From Myxococcales bacterium (lineage in GTDB: Bacteria; Myxococcota; Bradymonadia; UBA7976; UBA1532), in the NCBI GenBank assembly GCA_020430675.1, contig JAGQJJ010000156.1, positions 1-7,945 on the forward strand: 7,945 nt of DNA, in the 5' to 3' direction. The notes beneath the pieces were generated by a model, which searched no databases, was not told the DNA's origin, and saw nothing but the letters and a program-made list of their open reading frames with translations. Below are positions 425 to 7,436 of the stretch, in pieces. The position numbers were made by a program, and so were the translations under genes. Each line of letters starts with the position of its first letter. Within the stretch, counting starts at the first letter, position 1.

Positions 425-2121
425 CGCTGCGCGCACAGCTTGGCCTGCTCGCGCTGGGCTTCGCGCTCGCCGCCTGCGGCGCTGCGGCCGAAGACGCGGG
501 CGCGGCCGGCGCCGATGAGGAGCCGTCGAACTTCCGCGACGGGGGCGCGGGCGAGGGTCCGCAGGAACCCGGTGCCCGCGCTGAAGCCTGCGCCTTCGAC
601 GATGACTGCGCCGACGGCTATGTGTGCTTCGGCGGCCAGTGCATCTTCCAGGGCACCGACGCCCTGCCGCCGCCCGATGGCGCCGACGCCGGCCCGCGCG
701 AAGAAGAGGTCGACTTCGTGCAATACGGCCGCCCCGCCGCCGGCCGGGCCCAGGTCTTTGTCGCCAGCCCGCAGACCGACAGCGTGGTGCGCATTCACGC
801 CGAGACCCTGGCCATCGGCGTCATCGAGGTCGGCGACGAGCCCACCGAGCTGTACGCCGTGCCCGGCGAAGACACGGTCGTCGTGCTCAACCACACCAGC
901 GACGAGCTGGCCATCGTCACCGCCGAAGACACCGGCGACAGCGTTCGCCTCATCGCGCTGCCCTACCACTTCAACGCGCTCACGCTCGACCCCGCCGGCC
1001 GCTTTGCCTTCTGCTGGTTCGACCTGAGCCGCGCGCTGCCCGGCGAGGACGGCTCGGCGGTGCAGGACGTGGCCGTCGTCGATCTGGCCGGCGGCGCGGT
1101 CTCGCCCGTCGCCGTCGGCTTCCGCCCGCGCCGCGTGGGCTTCACCGCCGATGGCCGCATCGCGCTGGTGGTCACCGAAGACGGCGTCTCGGTCATCGAT
1201 CCCGCCGCGCTCGACGGACCGACGGCCGCGCGCACCGTGCCGGTGGCGCCCGATGTGTTCCGGCAGGCCGATCGCGAGGTCATCCTCAGCCCCGACGGCG
1301 CCTTCGCCGCCAGCCGCGGCCCGGGCGAGCCGGGCGTGACGCTGGTTGAACTGGCCGAAGGCGTGCCGCGCTTCGTGCCGCTCGGCGCGGTGCCCACCGA
1401 CCTCGATCTGCTGCCCGATGGCCGCACCGCGCTGGCGGTGCTGCGCTCGATCGGCCAGCTCGCGTTGGTGCCGATGGACACCGCGGCCGCCGATCCCGAG
1501 ACGATCCGCTTCGTCGACCTCGCCGGCCGGCAGGTCGGCGCCGCGGTGGCCGACGCCGCTGGAGAGGTGGCGGTGCTCTACACCACCGTCGCCGGCGCGC
1601 CGCCGCGGCTGACGCTGCTCGACCTGACCACCGAGGCGCTGGTCGACCTGCCGTTGCGCAAAGGCGTGCGCGGCGTGGCGCTCGATCCATCGGGCGGCGT
1701 GGCGTTTGTGCTGCACGACAAGGCCGAGGGCGATCCGGCGGCGGCGCCCACCGAAGCGGACCTGATCGCGCGCAGCGACGGCTACTCGCTGGTCGACCTG
1801 CGCACCGGCTTCGTCAAGTTGCAGACCACGCCCGCCGAGCCCTTCGGCCTCGTCTTTGCGCCCGATCGCCCGCTGGCGATGGTTTTGCTGGCCGACCCGG
1901 CGCGCCGCGTGGCCTCGGTGCAGCGCATCGACCTGGCCGCCTTCGACGTGCGCGACCGCCCGCTCGGCTCGACGCCCGAGGCCGCCGGCCTGCTGCCGGC
2001 CGTCGAGCGCGCCTTTGTGACCCAGACGCACCCCGAGGGGCGCATCAGCTTCATCCCGCTCGATGGCGAGGGGCGGGTCGAGACGGTGAGCGGCTACACG
2101 CTCAACGGGAGGATTGAATGA
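421..2121 (+). CDS. YVTN-like beta-propeller lipoprotein with N-terminal Cys cluster (566 aa)
   Basis: The N-terminus is a lipoprotein signal: Arg4, a hydrophobic stretch, and lipobox L16-A-A-C19. Gly at +2 suggests export to the outer membrane by the usual Lol rule. A low-complexity Ala/Gly/Asp/Glu linker follows, then a small cluster C57-x5-C63-x5-C69-x4-C74 (pattern CxxDxDCxxGxxCxxGxC) that may form two disulphides. From about residue 105 there are repeated blade motifs of the form hydrophobic-x-P-[DAS]-G near residues 148, 191, 243, 291, 332, 379, 423 and 481, spaced about 40-60. This fits a seven- or eight-bladed propeller of the YVTN/WD40-like type. Such domains usually bind proteins or ligands without catalysis. 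It is a tandem paralogue of the gene ending at 424, and ATGA overlaps occur on both sides. The start is supported by GGGAGG 5 nt upstream. The ligand and exact function are not recognisable. Confidence 0.85.
   Translation: MTLRAQLGLLALGFALAACGAAAEDAGAAGADEEPSNFRDGGAGEGPQEPGARAEACAFDDDCADGYVCFGGQCIFQGTDALPPPDGADAGPREEEVDFVQYGRPAAGRAQVFVASPQTDSVVRIHAETLAIGVIEVGDEPTELYAVPGEDTVVVLNHTSDELAIVTAEDTGDSVRLIALPYHFNALTLDPAGRFAFCWFDLSRALPGEDGSAVQDVAVVDLAGGAVSPVAVGFRPRRVGFTADGRIALVVTEDGVSVIDPAALDGPTAARTVPVAPDVFRQADREVILSPDGAFAASRGPGEPGVTLVELAEGVPRFVPLGAVPTDLDLLPDGRTALAVLRSIGQLALVPMDTAAADPETIRFVDLAGRQVGAAVADAAGEVAVLYTTVAGAPPRLTLLDLTTEALVDLPLRKGVRGVALDPSGGVAFVLHDKAEGDPAAAPTEADLIARSDGYSLVDLRTGFVKLQTTPAEPFGLVFAPDRPLAMVLLADPARRVASVQRIDLAAFDVRDRPLGSTPEAAGLLPAVERAFVTQTHPEGRISFIPLDGEGRVETVSGYTLNGRIE
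1990..2121 (+). repeat. Copy 2 of a near-identical 3'-end duplication
   Basis: This is the partner of 290-424. The two copies are about 1.7 kb apart, one gene length, as expected from duplication of a whole gene together with its translational junction. Both copies end in the same GGGAGG-N5-ATGA arrangement. Confidence 0.85.
2107..2112 (+). promoter_or_regulatory. Shine-Dalgarno GGGAGG embedded in the end of the upstream gene
   Basis: GGGAGG lies 5 nt before the ATG at 2118 and is again encoded by the NGRIE tail of the preceding gene. It repeats the arrangement at 410-415 and fixes the start of the next lipoprotein gene. Confidence 0.8.
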
Positions 2122-3632
2122 GACCGGCACCGATCCTGGCCTGGGTTCTGACCCTCGCCGTCACATCGGCCTGCGACCGCTCGGCGACGTTCGAGCGCCC
2201 GCTCGACCCATCGGCGGGCTACGCGCTGGCCCATCACGCCGCCTGGCTGCTGCGCGGGCAGCACGCGCTGGCCACCTTGCAGCCGGCGACGATGGTGCAG
2301 TCGCGCCTCGCCCTGCCCGCCGAGCCGGTGCAGGCGTTTGTCTCGCCAGCGGGCGATGGCCTGCTCATCATCGACGACGGCCCCGGCGCGCAATGGGTGC
2401 GGTTTGAGGCCAACCGCGTCGAGCTGGGACCGCGCTTTGCGCTGACCGGCACCTACGGCGAGGCGTGGTTTGCGCCCGAGGGCGACCGCGTCGTGCTGTC
2501 GCTGGGCGCGGGCGGCGCGCTGAGCGCGCCGATCGCCAACCCGAACCAGATCGCGCTGCTCGATCTGGACCGCGGCACGCATGTCGAGCGCACCTTGCGG
2601 TCGTTCGGCGACCGGCCGCGGGCCATCGTCGTCGGTCCGCGCGCCTCGGTGGCCGGCGCCGAGCGGCAACTGGTCTGGGCCCTGGCCGACCGCTATATGG
2701 CCGTCTTCGACCTGCTCGCCCCCGAGGCCCGCGAGGTGGTCGTGCACCTGACGCTGGCCACCGACACGCGCACCGTGCAGCCGCGACAGGTGGTCGTCGG
2801 CGAGGTCGACGGGGCCTATACCGCCTTCGTGCGCGCCGACGCCGCCGACGACATCTTCGCGCTGAGCTTCCCCGAGGCGTCACCGGCCGATGAGGTGCCG
2901 AAGCCCTATCTCAACCAATTGCCCGGCGGGCAGCGCCCCTCGGATGAGGTCGCGGTCGCGCTCGCCGAAGGCACCCGGGTCTTTGCCGTCGAGCCCTCAC
3001 TGCCCGGCCTGTCGATCATCGATCCCGTCACCGGCGCGCGGCTCGCGGTCAGCGCCGAGCTGCCGGTGCAGCACATTCTGGCTTTTGAAGCGCCGCGGCC
3101 CGACGACGAAGCGGCCATCGGCCACTTCGCGCTGCTCTGGCGCACCGGCAGCGCGGGCGTGGTCTTCGCCGACCTCGACCGCATCGAAGAGCGCCGGGGC
3201 CGCGCGCTGACGCCGCTGGTGCTCGGCGGCGCGATCGCCGCGCTCGACCCGCTGCCCGGCCGCCGCATGGCGCTGGCCCGCACCAGCAACCAGCAGCTCA
3301 CGGTGCTCGACTTCGACGCCCGCACCGCCACGCCCCTCGACCTGAGCGCCGACCTGCTCGACGTGCTCATCGACCCGACCGGCGCGCGCATCTACCTGCG
3401 GCTGGCCGACGCCGCGGTCATCTCGCTCGACGCCGACACGCTGACGGCGACCTCGACCGAGGTGCTCGTCGGCTACGAATCGCGGCTGCTGCTGGTGCCC
3501 GAGGCCGGGCGGCTGGTGCTGAGCGAGCCGGGCGACACGATCGACGTGGCCGTCCTGCCGGTGACCGATCTCGACGAGGCCACGCCCATCGTGCGGCACG
3601 GCCTGTTGCTCGAAGGAGTGCTCGACCGATGA
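2118..3632 (+). CDS. Divergent beta-propeller-type lipoprotein (504 aa)
   Basis: The signal sequence has Arg2, a hydrophobic core and Cys at residue 19 within T-S-A-C. This is a weaker lipobox than in the preceding gene because Thr replaces Leu at -3. The residue after Cys is Asp; in E. coli Asp at +2 retains lipoproteins at the inner membrane, but the rule may not hold in this lineage. The rest consists of short beta-rich repeats with turn motifs such as SPAGD (76-80), APEGD (119-123), PLPGR (378-382), DPTG (419-422) and PEAG (461-464), consistent with a propeller. It lacks the Cys cluster of the preceding protein and the NGRIE tail, so it is a distant relative at most. Its start overlaps the upstream stop (ATGA) and its stop overlaps the next start (ATGA), implying coupled translation with the other envelope proteins. 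No catalytic motif was recognised. Confidence 0.8.
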   Translation: MRPAPILAWVLTLAVTSACDRSATFERPLDPSAGYALAHHAAWLLRGQHALATLQPATMVQSRLALPAEPVQAFVSPAGDGLLIIDDGPGAQWVRFEANRVELGPRFALTGTYGEAWFAPEGDRVVLSLGAGGALSAPIANPNQIALLDLDRGTHVERTLRSFGDRPRAIVVGPRASVAGAERQLVWALADRYMAVFDLLAPEAREVVVHLTLATDTRTVQPRQVVVGEVDGAYTAFVRADAADDIFALSFPEASPADEVPKPYLNQLPGGQRPSDEVAVALAEGTRVFAVEPSLPGLSIIDPVTGARLAVSAELPVQHILAFEAPRPDDEAAIGHFALLWRTGSAGVVFADLDRIEERRGRALTPLVLGGAIAALDPLPGRRMALARTSNQQLTVLDFDARTATPLDLSADLLDVLIDPTGARIYLRLADAAVISLDADTLTATSTEVLVGYESRLLLVPEAGRLVLSEPGDTIDVAVLPVTDLDEATPIVRHGLLLEGVLDR

Positions 3633-4561: not shown

Positions 4562-4816
4562 GTGCTGCGCTGCCCCCGCTGTCGATCATCGCGCGTCGAG
4601 CTGATCATCGAGCGGTTCATCCGCCTGCGCGCCGCGGCCGATGGCGCGCCCCTGCCCTCACCCGGGCCGCCCGAACGCGGTGTGCGCGTGATCGGCGCCT
4701 TGTGTCGACGCTGCGCCCACGAGTGGCGACCGCGCTTTCACCGACAAAAAGGTTGTCACCATTCAGCCGCTCGGCTAAACAGTGAATCGAATGATCGGGA
4801 GGGCGATGATGGCTGA
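4562..4816 (+). CDS. Small zinc-ribbon protein (84 aa)
   Basis: With the GTG start the protein opens directly with a zinc knuckle, C4-P-R-C7, and has a second one, C48-R-R-C51, followed by HEW. Two CxxC pairs about 40 residues apart are the pattern of a zinc-ribbon fold. Between them lie a charged, helix- or strand-forming stretch (VELIIERFIRLR) and a Pro-rich loop. The tail is Asn/Ser/Asp/Glu-rich, contains C65-H66-H67, and looks unstructured; its codons coincide with the likely promoter of the next gene. An alternative ATG at 4508 would add 18 residues with no recognisable content. The stop overlaps the XRE start by 8 bp. A regulatory or nucleic-acid-binding role is plausible from fold and neighbours only; no specific family was recognised. 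Confidence 0.6.
   Translation: MLRCPRCRSSRVELIIERFIRLRAAADGAPLPSPGPPERGVRVIGALCRRCAHEWRPRFHRQKGCHHSAARLNSESNDREGDDG
4743..4757. promoter_or_regulatory. Candidate repressor operator, GACAA-N5-TTGTC
   Basis: A perfect dyad with 5-base arms and a 5-base spacer lies in an AT-richer patch 52-66 bp before the XRE start. Its right arm is part of the proposed -35 element (TTGTCA). Half-sites of this size and spacing suit a dimeric XRE/Cro-type repressor. No binding data exist, and 5-bp arms can arise by chance. Confidence 0.4.
4753..4781 (+). promoter_or_regulatory. Possible sigma-70-type promoter for the XRE-ImmA-sigma genes
   Basis: TTGTCA (4753-4758, five of six matches to the -35 consensus) and TAAACA (4776-4781, three of six matches to the -10) are separated by exactly 17 bp. 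Transcription would begin near 4788, leaving a leader of about 20 nt with GGGAGG before the XRE start. The -10 lacks the final T, so this is a weak call, strengthened mainly by position and local AT content. Confidence 0.4.
4765..4776. promoter_or_regulatory. Second dyad, AGCCG-N2-CGGCT, inside the promoter spacer
   Basis: Perfect 5-base arms around a 2-base centre fall between the proposed -35 and -10 elements and touch the -10. A protein bound here would block RNA polymerase. It differs in sequence from the GACAA/TTGTC dyad, so at most one of the two is likely to be the XRE site, and GC-rich DNA makes such dyads fairly common. Confidence 0.3.
4798..4802 (+). promoter_or_regulatory. Shine-Dalgarno (GGAGG) deciding the XRE start
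   Basis: GGAGG lies 3 nt before ATG 4806 and 6 nt before ATG 4809, favouring 4809. A longer in-frame GTG at 4782 has no Shine-Dalgarno before it and would put this site inside the gene. Confidence 0.65.
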
Positions 4817-5168
4817 GCGGTTCGGCGAACGACTCCGCGCCCTGCGCACCGAACGCGGCGCGACGATGGGCGCGCTGGCGCGGCACCTCGGGGTGTCGGT
4901 GCCCTACATCTCCGACGTCGAGCGCAGCCTGCGCGCGCCGCTGACGACCGACAAGATCCGCGCCGCTGCCGAGTACCTCGGGTCCGACCCCGAGCCGCTC
5001 TTTGCCTTGGCGGCGGCCGAGCGCGGCGCCTTCGAGCTGGCCGCTCGGCCCGGCGATCCGCTGCGCTCCGAGGTGGGCGCGGCGCTGATGCGCGGCTGGG
5101 GCGACCTGTCGGAGCGCGACCTGCGCACCATCCTGCACATCGTGCGCGGCGACGAGCGCGGCCGATGA
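4809..5168 (+). CDS. XRE-family helix-turn-helix transcriptional repressor (119 aa)
   Basis: Residues 3-58 form a typical Cro/cI-type HTH: F5-G-E-R-L-R-A-L-R helix 1, an HTH at about 20-38 (MGALARHLGVSVPYISDVE) with the usual A-x-x-L-G-V-S-x-x-Y-I-S-x-x-E pattern, then helices covering the K49-I-x-x-A-A-E-Y-L region. The C-terminal part (60-119) is a short helical extension, much too short for a cI-type protease domain. The start at 4809 is chosen from the GGAGG spacing. The stop overlaps the start of the ImmA-like peptidase gene by 4 bp. XRE repressors paired this way (ImmR/ImmA of ICEBs1, DdrO/IrrE of Deinococcus) are inactivated when the peptidase cleaves them. Cleavage and derepression here are inferred from that family knowledge. 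It probably represses its own promoter through a nearby dyad. Confidence 0.9.
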   Translation: MAERFGERLRALRTERGATMGALARHLGVSVPYISDVERSLRAPLTTDKIRAAAEYLGSDPEPLFALAAAERGAFELAARPGDPLRSEVGAALMRGWGDLSERDLRTILHIVRGDERGR

Positions 5169-5845
5169 GGGTCGCCGAGCCTTTGCCCCACGCCGCGCCG
5201 CGGGCACGCCGCCGCCCCGGCCTGCCCGCCGATCGCGGGCGCAGCTACGCCGAATTGGAGCGCAACGCCGCTGTCATGCGCGCCCGCTGGTCGCAAGGCG
5301 CGCACTGCGCCTTCCCGGCGCTGGCCATCTTCGAGCGCCTCGACGCCCTCACCGCGCGCTGGCCGGTGCCGGTGGAACCTGCGGTGAACCCGCTGCCGCC
5401 GGGCATCGAAGCGGTGACGCTGTTCAGCCCCGACGCCGGGCGACTGGTCGTCGCGCTCGACCCGTCGACCTATTCGGCCCTGGAGCGCGAGGCGCCCCGA
5501 GCGCGCTTCTCGCTTTGCCACGAACTGGGCCACGCGCTGCTGCATCTGCCGGTGCTGCGCCGCCTGGCCCGCCTGCCGCTGCGCCAGATGATGGCCGGCC
5601 GCGAGGCCGCGCGGCATGGCATCTGGTGCGACGCCGAGTGGCAGGCCGACGTCTTCGCCGGCGCGCTGCTGATGCCGGCGCCCGGGCTCGACGCCACGCT
5701 GGCCTTCGATCCGACCTATATGTCGGTGCTGAGCCGCTTCGGGGTGTCATTCGAAGCGGCGCATACCCGCATCCGCTATTTCCGCCGACGCCGCGGCGAG
5801 CTGCTGCGCGCCGCCAGCCGCGGAGGCCTGCCATGCGGCCGCTGA
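5165..5845 (+). CDS. ImmA/IrrE-family zinc metallopeptidase (COG2856, M78; 226 aa)
   Basis: The zinc-binding motif H119-E-L-G-H123 is intact, preceded by F-S-L-C and followed by ALLHLP. The third ligand is probably E158 in E158-W-Q-A-D-V-F-A-G-A-L-L-M-P171, matching the family signature E-x-x-A-x-x-F-A-x-x-L-L-M-P. A C-terminal segment (MSVLSRFGVSFEAAHTRIRYF) matches the usual 'SxxAxxxRL' helix after the catalytic part. Residues 1-25 are Arg/Pro-rich and have no match. No signal peptide or membrane segment is seen, so it is cytoplasmic. Known members cleave a cognate XRE repressor on a signal; the gene directly upstream is such a repressor, joined by an ATGA overlap without its own strong Shine-Dalgarno, which suggests coupled synthesis. 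No GAF sensor domain like that of IrrE is present, so the activating signal is unknown. Confidence 0.92.
   Translation: MRVAEPLPHAAPRARRRPGLPADRGRSYAELERNAAVMRARWSQGAHCAFPALAIFERLDALTARWPVPVEPAVNPLPPGIEAVTLFSPDAGRLVVALDPSTYSALEREAPRARFSLCHELGHALLHLPVLRRLARLPLRQMMAGREAARHGIWCDAEWQADVFAGALLMPAPGLDATLAFDPTYMSVLSRFGVSFEAAHTRIRYFRRRRGELLRAASRGGLPCGR
5822..5826 (+). promoter_or_regulatory. Shine-Dalgarno GGAGG deciding the sigma-factor start
   Basis: GGAGG with a 6-nt spacer precedes ATG 5833. It lies inside the 3' end of the peptidase gene. Extending the frame upstream to other ATGs (as far as 5515) would add Arg/Pro-rich sequence that is only the peptidase gene read in another frame. Confidence 0.75.
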
Positions 5846-6417
5846 GCGGAACGGGCCTCTTGCTGCGCGCGCTGTCGCCCTGGTTCGAGGTCGATCTGGT
5901 GCTCTTGCAGGTCAACCACCCGATCCTGGGCCCGCAGCACTTCGTCCGGCGGCATCGAGCGGGCCTGACCCGCGGTGTGGCGGCGGTCTGCCGGCGCTAC
6001 GGCGTCTCGGCGGCCGAGGTCGATGACATCGTGCACGAGACGCTGCGCCGCTTGATGGAGCCCGGCCACCGCCCGCATCTGGCCGACCGGGGCACCCCCG
6101 AGGCCTATCTGCTCGGCGTGCTGCTCAACGTGATGAACATGGCCCGGCGGCGACGCGAGGCCCGGCGCCGCGCGCCCGAGACCCCGTCGCTGCCCGCGCC
6201 GCGGGTCGACCCGGATCGTCGGGTGCTGGCCCATGAACTGCTGGCCGACGCGCCGCCCGAGACCCGGGCGCTGGTGCGCTTGCTGATCTGGGAGGGCGCC
6301 TCGCAGAGAGAGGCCGCCGCTGCGCTGGGGGTCGACGCCTCGACCATCTCGCGGCGCTGGTCAGCCTTCTGCCGGCAGGCCCGCGCCCGAGTGGCCGCCG
6401 AGGAAAAAACTCGCTGA
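5833..6417 (+). CDS. ECF-type RNA polymerase sigma factor (194 aa)
   Basis: The region 2 equivalent runs from about residue 37 to 110: FVRRHRAGL, a DDIVHETLRRL helix (D64-L74) matching the family 'DLVQETFLRL' core-binding segment, then G-T-P-E-A-Y-L-L-G-V-L-L-N-V with an Arg-rich end (about 88-113). A Pro-rich linker leads to region 4 (about 140-185): PPETRALVRLLIWEGAS, then an HTH with S157-Q-R-E-A-A-A-A-L-G-V-D-A-S-T-I-S-R-R. No extra C-terminal domain and no membrane segment are visible. Length is normal for the family. It overlaps the peptidase gene by 13 bp, so it belongs to the same unit as the XRE/ImmA pair. No anti-sigma gene (ZAS-type zinc-binding or membrane-spanning) lies next to it in the window. 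The ECF subgroup was not determined. Confidence 0.85.
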   Translation: MRPLSGTGLLLRALSPWFEVDLVLLQVNHPILGPQHFVRRHRAGLTRGVAAVCRRYGVSAAEVDDIVHETLRRLMEPGHRPHLADRGTPEAYLLGVLLNVMNMARRRREARRRAPETPSLPAPRVDPDRRVLAHELLADAPPETRALVRLLIWEGASQREAAAALGVDASTISRRWSAFCRQARARVAAEEKTR

Positions 6418-6424
6418 TCGAAGG

Positions 6425-6440
6425 GGCGCCAGACGGCGCC
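6425..6440 (+). other. GC hairpin abutting the Shine-Dalgarno of the next gene
   Basis: GGCGCC-AGAC-GGCGCC gives a 6-bp all-GC stem with a 4-nt loop. It ends directly at the AGGAGGT site. No T-run follows, so it is not a convincing intrinsic terminator. It could stabilise the mRNA 5' of a processed end or tune translation. Confidence 0.5.
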
Positions 6441-6447
6441 AGGAGGT
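6441..6447 (+). promoter_or_regulatory. Strong Shine-Dalgarno AGGAGGT
   Basis: This is a full consensus site 5 nt before ATG 6453, the strongest in the window, suggesting that the following secreted protein is made in quantity relative to its neighbours. Confidence 0.8.
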
Positions 6448-6452
6448 GCGCG

Positions 6453-7436
6453 ATGCGCCCGATCATTGTCTGCACGATGCTCACCGCGCTCTGCGCCACA
6501 CCGGCGCTTGCCGGCGATGCGTGGACGGTGCTGCCGATGCCATCCCGCGGGGTCGAAGCCGACGTGGGCGAGACTTTCCGCGAGCTGCTGACGACCGAGC
6601 TGTCAGCTCGCAACGGGGCCACCTTCGTCTCGTCGGGCGCCGTCTGCGACGACACGCCCTGCGCGCGCAAGGCCGGACAGCAGGCCGGCGCCGCGGTTGC
6701 CGTCTTCGGCCGCATGGCGCGCCTCGGCGACAAGCTGATCGTCAGCCTCAGCGCGGTTGACGTGACCCATGGCAGCATGCTGAGCAACCAGCGCATGAGC
6801 GTCGACCGCATCGAAGACCTCGAAGCGGTGGCCACGCGCATGGCCGAGGCCATCGTCGAGGGGCGATCGGTCGAAGACACCGCCGCGCTCGGCACGATCA
6901 CCGCCGCCGAGGTCGCGCCCGACCGCCGCCGCGAGGGCCATAGCGGCCCGAGCCTGCGCGTGGGCGGCATGGTGCCCTTCGGCGACAGCCTGCACGCCGG
7001 CTTCGGGGTGCTCTTCGACCTGGGCTACTGGTACGAAGCGCGCGACTTTGCCATCGAACCGCGCGTGGCCTTCCGCATGAGCACCGACGTCGACGGCGAG
7101 GAGTACTACCGCGTCGGCCACCTCGACGTGGCCGCGCATTACATCCTCACCCGCACCGACTTTGCGCCGTTCATCGGCCTCGGCGGCGGCCTGCGCTTCG
7201 CCGACGAGGTGCGCAACCGGCAGGTCTCGATCGGCAAGGCGGTGCGGCTGGTCGGCACCGAGCAGGTCGAAAAGAGCGCCTGGGGCCCCGGCGCCTACGC
7301 CCGCCTCGGCGTGCTCTTGTTCCGCACCTATACGCTGCGCGTGGCGTTCACCGTCGACTACGACGTGACCTTCGTCGAGCTGCATGACGACAAGGTGCCG
7401 CAGTCGATCCAGGCCGGCGTGGGGGTCATGTTCTGA
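6453..7436 (+). CDS. Secreted protein: N-terminal TolB/CsgG-like domain plus C-terminal outer-membrane barrel (327 aa)
   Basis: A Sec signal peptide covers residues 1-20 (probable cleavage ALA|GD). Residues 22 to about 140 resemble the alpha/beta domain of TolB-N/CsgG/LpoB-like proteins common in myxobacteria: a first strand W-T-V-L-P-M, a helix F-R-E-L-L-T-T-E-L, the motif C65-x4-C70-A-R-K-A-G-Q-Q-A-G-A followed by a strand AVAVFGRM, and LIVSLSAVDVTHGSML, which parallels the 'l.l.dv.tg.v' strand of that fold. C65 and C70 may form a disulphide. From about 165 to 327 there are alternating-hydrophobic barrel strands with many aromatic residues, ending in Phe327. It follows the sigma gene by 35 bp with a strong Shine-Dalgarno, so it may be co-transcribed with the regulators. 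The role is unknown; assembly or sensing at the outer membrane is a guess from the domains. The N-terminal domain assignment is by pattern only. Confidence 0.78.
   Translation: MRPIIVCTMLTALCATPALAGDAWTVLPMPSRGVEADVGETFRELLTTELSARNGATFVSSGAVCDDTPCARKAGQQAGAAVAVFGRMARLGDKLIVSLSAVDVTHGSMLSNQRMSVDRIEDLEAVATRMAEAIVEGRSVEDTAALGTITAAEVAPDRRREGHSGPSLRVGGMVPFGDSLHAGFGVLFDLGYWYEARDFAIEPRVAFRMSTDVDGEEYYRVGHLDVAAHYILTRTDFAPFIGLGGGLRFADEVRNRQVSIGKAVRLVGTEQVEKSAWGPGAYARLGVLLFRTYTLRVAFTVDYDVTFVELHDDKVPQSIQAGVGVMF

Follow-up and report, generated by a model that had tools for sequence, protein, structure and literature searches.

A putative self-repressed operon joining a CapH/CapP-like repressor-protease pair to an ECF sigma factor gene in a Myxococcales bacterium

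Three overlapping genes were identified on the plus strand of the 7,945-nt stretch of DNA analysed here (the window), encoding an XRE/CapH-like repressor of 119 aa (4809..5168), an M78 (ImmA/IrrE/CapP-like) zinc metalloprotease of 226 aa (5165..5845) and an ECF sigma factor of 194 aa (5833..6417). The overlaps, read from the sequence, are 4 nt between repressor and protease (5165-5168) and 13 nt between protease and sigma factor (5833-5845). GC3 of the three genes was 0.89-0.92, and for each of them the own frame outscored the other five frames under a codon model, a result that is partly circular because the model was trained on window genes including these three. The flanks consist of neighbouring copies of a beta-propeller-like protein (1-424, 421-2121 and 2118-3632) on one side, and of an outer-membrane-type gene (6453-7436) and a small lipoprotein-like ORF truncated at the end of the contig (7440-7943) on the other. 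The 87 matches to the beta-propeller gene at 421-2121 carry 11 organism names, six of them from Myxococcales, Polyangiales, Polyangia or Polyangiaceae, two from Deltaproteobacteria, one from Pseudomonadota and two given as 'bacterium', which points to a probable kinship of the host with myxobacteria. Folding of the gap behind the sigma gene (6418-6452) gave a hairpin, GGCGCC-AGAC-GGCGCC (6425..6440), with a perfect 6-bp stem and without a T run.

The first protein was assigned by a Pfam match to HTH_31 (E 2.1e-13), in agreement with the XRE helix-turn-helix repressor of the original prediction, and by the PADLOC capH model (E 2.1e-9). It could be aligned with 17 relatives at 31-45% identity, the closest being that of locus L002 (45%). 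The start codon, previously placed at 4782, was corrected to the ATG at 4809, which matches the start of the relatives.

The second protein matched PF06114 (E 8.3e-11) and contains both HELGH and EWQAD, the active-site residues of an M78 protease, so that the ImmA/IrrE-type protease proposed earlier was confirmed. Its nearest solved structure, both by profile and by fold, was CapP, and residues 30-208 of the predicted model, which has a CapP-like fold, aligned to CapP 7-182 of 278, the C-terminal (GAF-like) part of CapP being missing. The GAF-like domain of PprI is needed for ssDNA binding and activation (PMC10904395, accessible part). Since the window protease stops roughly at the point from which CapP continues into its C-terminal part, it may lack a PprI-type ssDNA switch. 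In three relatives (P0013-P0015), HTH and M78 are fused as a single chain. A single-sequence search with the M78 protein gave no match in plasmids and phages and none in genome contigs, and searches with an alignment yielded 24 loci in viral contigs and 44 in genome contigs. At E 1e-12, few whole genomes contained the family (4/195, 7/235, 4/294 and 7/173, the set of 173 overlapping that of 235). The M78 frame of L002 (10001-10621, a Planctomycetota record with a copy in L124) is interrupted by one stop.

For the third protein, Sigma70_r2 passed its cut-off (27.1 bits against 24) and TIGR02937 stayed under its own (38.1 against 42.9). The AF2 model (pLDDT 81.4, pTM 0.50) had Foldseek matches including SigL, CnrH and sigmaE, and the protein has regions 2 and 4 only, in an ECF fold; the prediction of an ECF sigma factor thus held. 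A cognate anti-sigma gene adjoining the ECF sigma gene is usual, not universal. No anti-sigma family was found in the proteins neighbouring sigma at E 1 (Pfam and NCBIfam), and control of this sigma factor would therefore be transcriptional. A homologue search at E 1e-3 among 6767 candidates, which requires shared 5-residue words, returned only the protein itself, and the sigma factor may accordingly be decaying or fast-evolving. On inspection by eye of four Myxococcota loci (L045, L058, L061 and L062), genes related to the window sigma stand before a protein that begins like a CxxC zinc finger, behind which comes a caspase-like protein.

Ahead of the repressor gene lies promoter-like sequence on the plus strand, in which a -35-like hexamer TTGTCA (4753..4758) is separated by 17 nt from a -10-like hexamer TAAACA (4776..4781). 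The operator-like palindrome TCAGCCGCTCGGCTAA (4763..4778) falls inside this arrangement and overlaps the -10-like hexamer. Upstream of the XRE gene, TTAGCTnATnAGCTAA was common to many of the 18 nearest loci, and the 19 relatives L001-L018 and L093, with the window left out, served to train a motif, the sites of L004, L006, L007 and L014, identical or one base apart, weighing on it. Its top site in the whole window was 4763-4778 at 9.4 bits, followed by one of 3.8 bits at 4814-4829. This score was reached by 13 of 300 simulated whole windows, by 42 of 20000 simulated 110-mers of local composition and 12 of 20000 of window composition, and by none of 20000 when TTGWC was required 10 nt upstream. 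In leave-one-out scoring, the sites of 13 of the 19 relatives outscored the window site, L001, L009, L015 and L018 scored 6.4-8.5, and no operator site was seen in L002 (-3.8) or L011 (0.4). As in the window, the operator of 6/19 relatives (L003-L007 and L009) is preceded at a distance of 10 nt by a -35-like element, there TTGAC, and TAAACT occupies the -10 place in L003, L005 and L007. A generic promoter scan called no promoter here; what it reported at the operator position was a minus-strand hairpin resembling a terminator. An inverted-repeat search at its settings found nothing. Taken as sequence evidence, a repressor operator within the promoter of its own operon is fairly well supported.

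The position of this promoter bears on a fourth gene, which the original prediction had placed at the head of the unit. A zinc-ribbon-like ORF (4562..4816, plus strand) carries the motifs CPRC and CRRC, overlaps the XRE gene by 8 nt (4809-4816) and shows a weak coding signal at about 4574-4700, where there may be a short gene; all three points would speak for a four-gene system with the zinc ribbon as partner or sensor. However, the ORF matched no Pfam or NCBIfam model at cut-off, its last 69 nt appear non-coding (GC3 0.39, coding score -1.23) and overlap both promoter and operator, and the first 116 loci held no match to the zinc ribbon with an E value under 0.03. Because its 3' end is non-coding and holds the promoter, the ORF most likely lies upstream of the regulated unit, not inside it; the zinc ribbon was rejected as fourth member, and the four-gene system is considered very improbable. 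From the single unit of overlapping genes proposed earlier, XRE, M78 and sigma behind one promoter with a conserved operator were thus retained, and the zinc-ribbon ORF was dropped.

Several known systems resemble the remaining pair. ImmR and ImmA of ICEBs1 are likewise an adjacent repressor-protease pair, although no integrase, conjugation or phage family was detected in the nine window proteins scanned on this short contig (7.9 kb). CapH and CapP are reportedly described as controllers by Lau et al. 2022. The two control CBASS and Bub operons, and cleavage of the repressor CapH is carried out by CapP, for which ssDNA is the activator (PMC13373217, accessible part). As in this system, the HTH repressor gene stands directly upstream of the M78 gene in the window and in 18/18 nearest loci (L001-L018, 17 found by the counting rule and L014 read separately), whose records come from Myxococcus, Planctomycetota, Caldilineaceae, Chloroflexi, Actinomycetes, Acidimicrobiia, a gemmatimonad, acidobacterial and delta-proteobacterial sources and Desulfovibrio. 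In contrast to CapH/CapP, the window protease is without the CapP C-terminal part, and an ECF sigma gene stands where CapH/CapP is followed by an immune operon; no such operon was found downstream, the sigma, outer-membrane-type and lipoprotein-like frames being there instead. The GAF-like domain that is absent from the window protease also sets it apart from the PprI/IrrE of Deinococcus, whose partner DdrO controls a set of DNA-damage genes directly (PMC10904395, accessible part), whereas the window sigma would be a relay. The proposed kinship with the ImmR/ImmA and DdrO/IrrE pairs was upheld and includes the CapH/CapP type. The XRE-M78 pair itself is well supported, and it is taken to be a CapH/CapP-like, putatively self-repressed controller. 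No description of an XRE-M78-ECF unit was found among titles and abstract starts of the open-licence PMC literature.

What follows the pair differs among its relatives. Downstream ORFs were scanned with Pfam in 12 of the 18 nearest loci (L001-L007, L009, L012, L014, L015 and L018), and ubiquitin-like conjugation (Bub-like) genes were found behind M78 in six of them (L003-L007 and L014): Multi_ubiq in L004-L007 and L014 (weak in L005, E 3e-4), and ThiF and JAB, weakly, in L003. This agrees with the occurrence of CapW or CapH+CapP beside 219/544 Bub operons (PMC13373217, accessible part). Helicases were present in L009 and L018, only weak matches below cut-offs in L002, and no Pfam family in the downstream ORFs of L001, L012 and L015. 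The loci L001-L171 gave 48 XRE-M78 pairs after exclusion of the copies L053, L117 and L124, L014 having escaped the counting rule. Some of the 48 look like copies of each other, e.g. L102/L103 and L021/L108. With two ECF models, an ECF gene adjoined 0/48 pairs and lay within 5 kb of one (L030, 2.2 kb away behind another ORF), counts that are limited by downstream sequence, less than 1 kb in 5/48 pairs and about 1.5 kb in many others. A divergent sigma could be missed, since the first ECF model alone missed four of ten loci of another ECF-M78 cassette (L023, L027, L028 and L034). The order XRE-M78-sigma was found on this contig only, in a comparison that covered loci other than those of the nearest proteins, P0002-P0009. 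Conservation next to the pair, by which the original prediction was to be judged, was thus seen neither for the sigma gene nor, at E 0.03 in 116 loci, for the zinc ribbon.

The flanks were also compared. No match to XRE, M78 or sigma was obtained in 20 Myxococcota stretches around beta-propeller relatives, which are 31-37% identical and several of which lie on contigs of only 6-9 kb. Relatives of the outer-membrane-type gene, from the downstream flank, lie in 5 further stretches, and there was no match to XRE or M78 in these; a sigma match occurred in two of them on the other strand (L187, 3.4 kb away; L191, 2.8 kb away). A tie between the module and its flanking genes is thus not supported by these 20 + 5 stretches, which hold the less close flank relatives, others being up to 62% identical.

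These neighbourhoods suit an explanation in which XRE and M78 form a CapH/CapP-like controller of the ordinary sort, next to which the sigma gene, under its own control, came to lie by accident after a rearrangement: ECF genes do not adjoin the other pairs, related pairs precede other cargo, and relatives of both flanks occur without the module. However, the M78 and sigma genes overlap by 13 nt on one strand, and the cargo of CapH/CapP-type controllers varies (PMC13373217, accessible part), so that a unique cargo would also be expected from a change of cargo. An accidental neighbour is therefore regarded as rather unlikely. The reading preferred here, which is considered somewhat probable, is that 4753-6417 forms one self-repressed operon, in which cleavage of XRE by M78 releases sigma as output. 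It is supported by an operator-like site that is kept in relatives, is the best of the window and lies in the right place, by the constant XRE-M78 order of the nearest loci, by the relatives in which HTH and M78 are fused, by the likeness of the protease to CapP and the published action of CapP on CapH, by the overlapping frames, by related pairs preceding other cargo (Multi_ubiq and, weakly, ThiF/JAB), and by the partnership of ECF sigma and M78 in the 14-locus cassette described below. Against it count the sigma adjacency, seen once and repeated in 0/48 pairs, a window site that is weaker than those of most relatives and has no counterpart in two, the shortened C-terminus of the protease, the outcome of the generic promoter scan and the absence of sigma homologues in the search above.

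Under the operon reading, an XRE dimer would sit on the palindrome 4763-4778, where it would cover some of the promoter spacer together with the first bases of the -10 hexamer, and would keep xre-m78-sigma expression low. A signal would activate the M78 protease, which would cut the XRE protein; repression would then lift and the operon be transcribed, and newly made ECF sigma would redirect RNA polymerase to other genes. Binding of XRE to DNA and its cleavage by M78 would be expected from their families. Repressor cleavage leading to a burst of sigma, as originally proposed, is considered the most likely mechanism. That sigma is the output of the controller is likely, judging from gene order and the overlap in this single contig. 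Repressor-protease pairs guard toxic or immune genes; the pair here is of a known kind, but for such a pair to have a sigma factor as output seems unusual. If the pair does guard sigma, a local cleavage event would be relayed to a broader set of transcripts, and a module of this type could stand before any output. As the operator-like site is shared, the mechanism can be tested by comparing the window with its relatives.

A separate combination of the same two families was found in 10 of the 44 loci from the M78 alignment search (L023 at 8602-10639, L024 at 8751-10669, L025-L029, L034, L039 and L042), where an ECF sigma gene is followed on one strand by the gene for a small protein (105-135 aa) and then by an M78 gene. 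A search with the small protein, which has a C-terminal AAR.G...M..D region, in 294 genomes centred on Planctomycetota gave four loci (L168-L171), all four with the same gene order, and ECF sigma and M78 thus occur together in 14 cassette loci. The records belong to Phycisphaerae, Planctomycetota, Pirellulales, Bacteroidota, Prosthecobacter, Pimelobacter and Ca. Multivorans, and no description of the cassette was found among titles and abstract starts of the open-licence PMC literature. Like the window, the cassette unites an ECF sigma and an M78 gene in one unit on one strand; it differs in that sigma comes first, there is no XRE, the middle protein is a different one, and the M78 protein belongs to a different subfamily, whose C-terminal part is longer. 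Although separate and rare (4/294), the cassette demonstrates a conserved pairing of M78 with ECF sigma.

This pairing could point to a more direct route in the window, with XRE inhibiting the sigma protein or M78 acting on sigma itself, and DNA binding by XRE being secondary. However, neither the cassette small protein nor the cassette-type sigma matched any window frame at E 10, the window gene order is the reverse of that of the cassette, and XRE has a conserved operator-like site; direct action on sigma is thus thought quite improbable. Starting again from the self-repressed operon, it may be suggested tentatively that cytoplasmic M78 metalloproteases are a general, undescribed switch for ECF sigma factors, to which at least two routes have led. 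In the window, the protease would destroy the XRE repressor by which the sigma gene is silenced; in the cassette, it would destroy the small protein, acting there as a soluble sigma inhibitor. The cassette offers a second, conserved system for testing protease control of ECF sigma factors.

Some minor observations concern the module ends and the flanks. No direct repeats of 7-14 nt were common to both module flanks. The outer-membrane-type gene and the small lipoprotein-like gene are paired without the module in L187 and L188, and propeller-like genes stand side by side also in L149 and L152.
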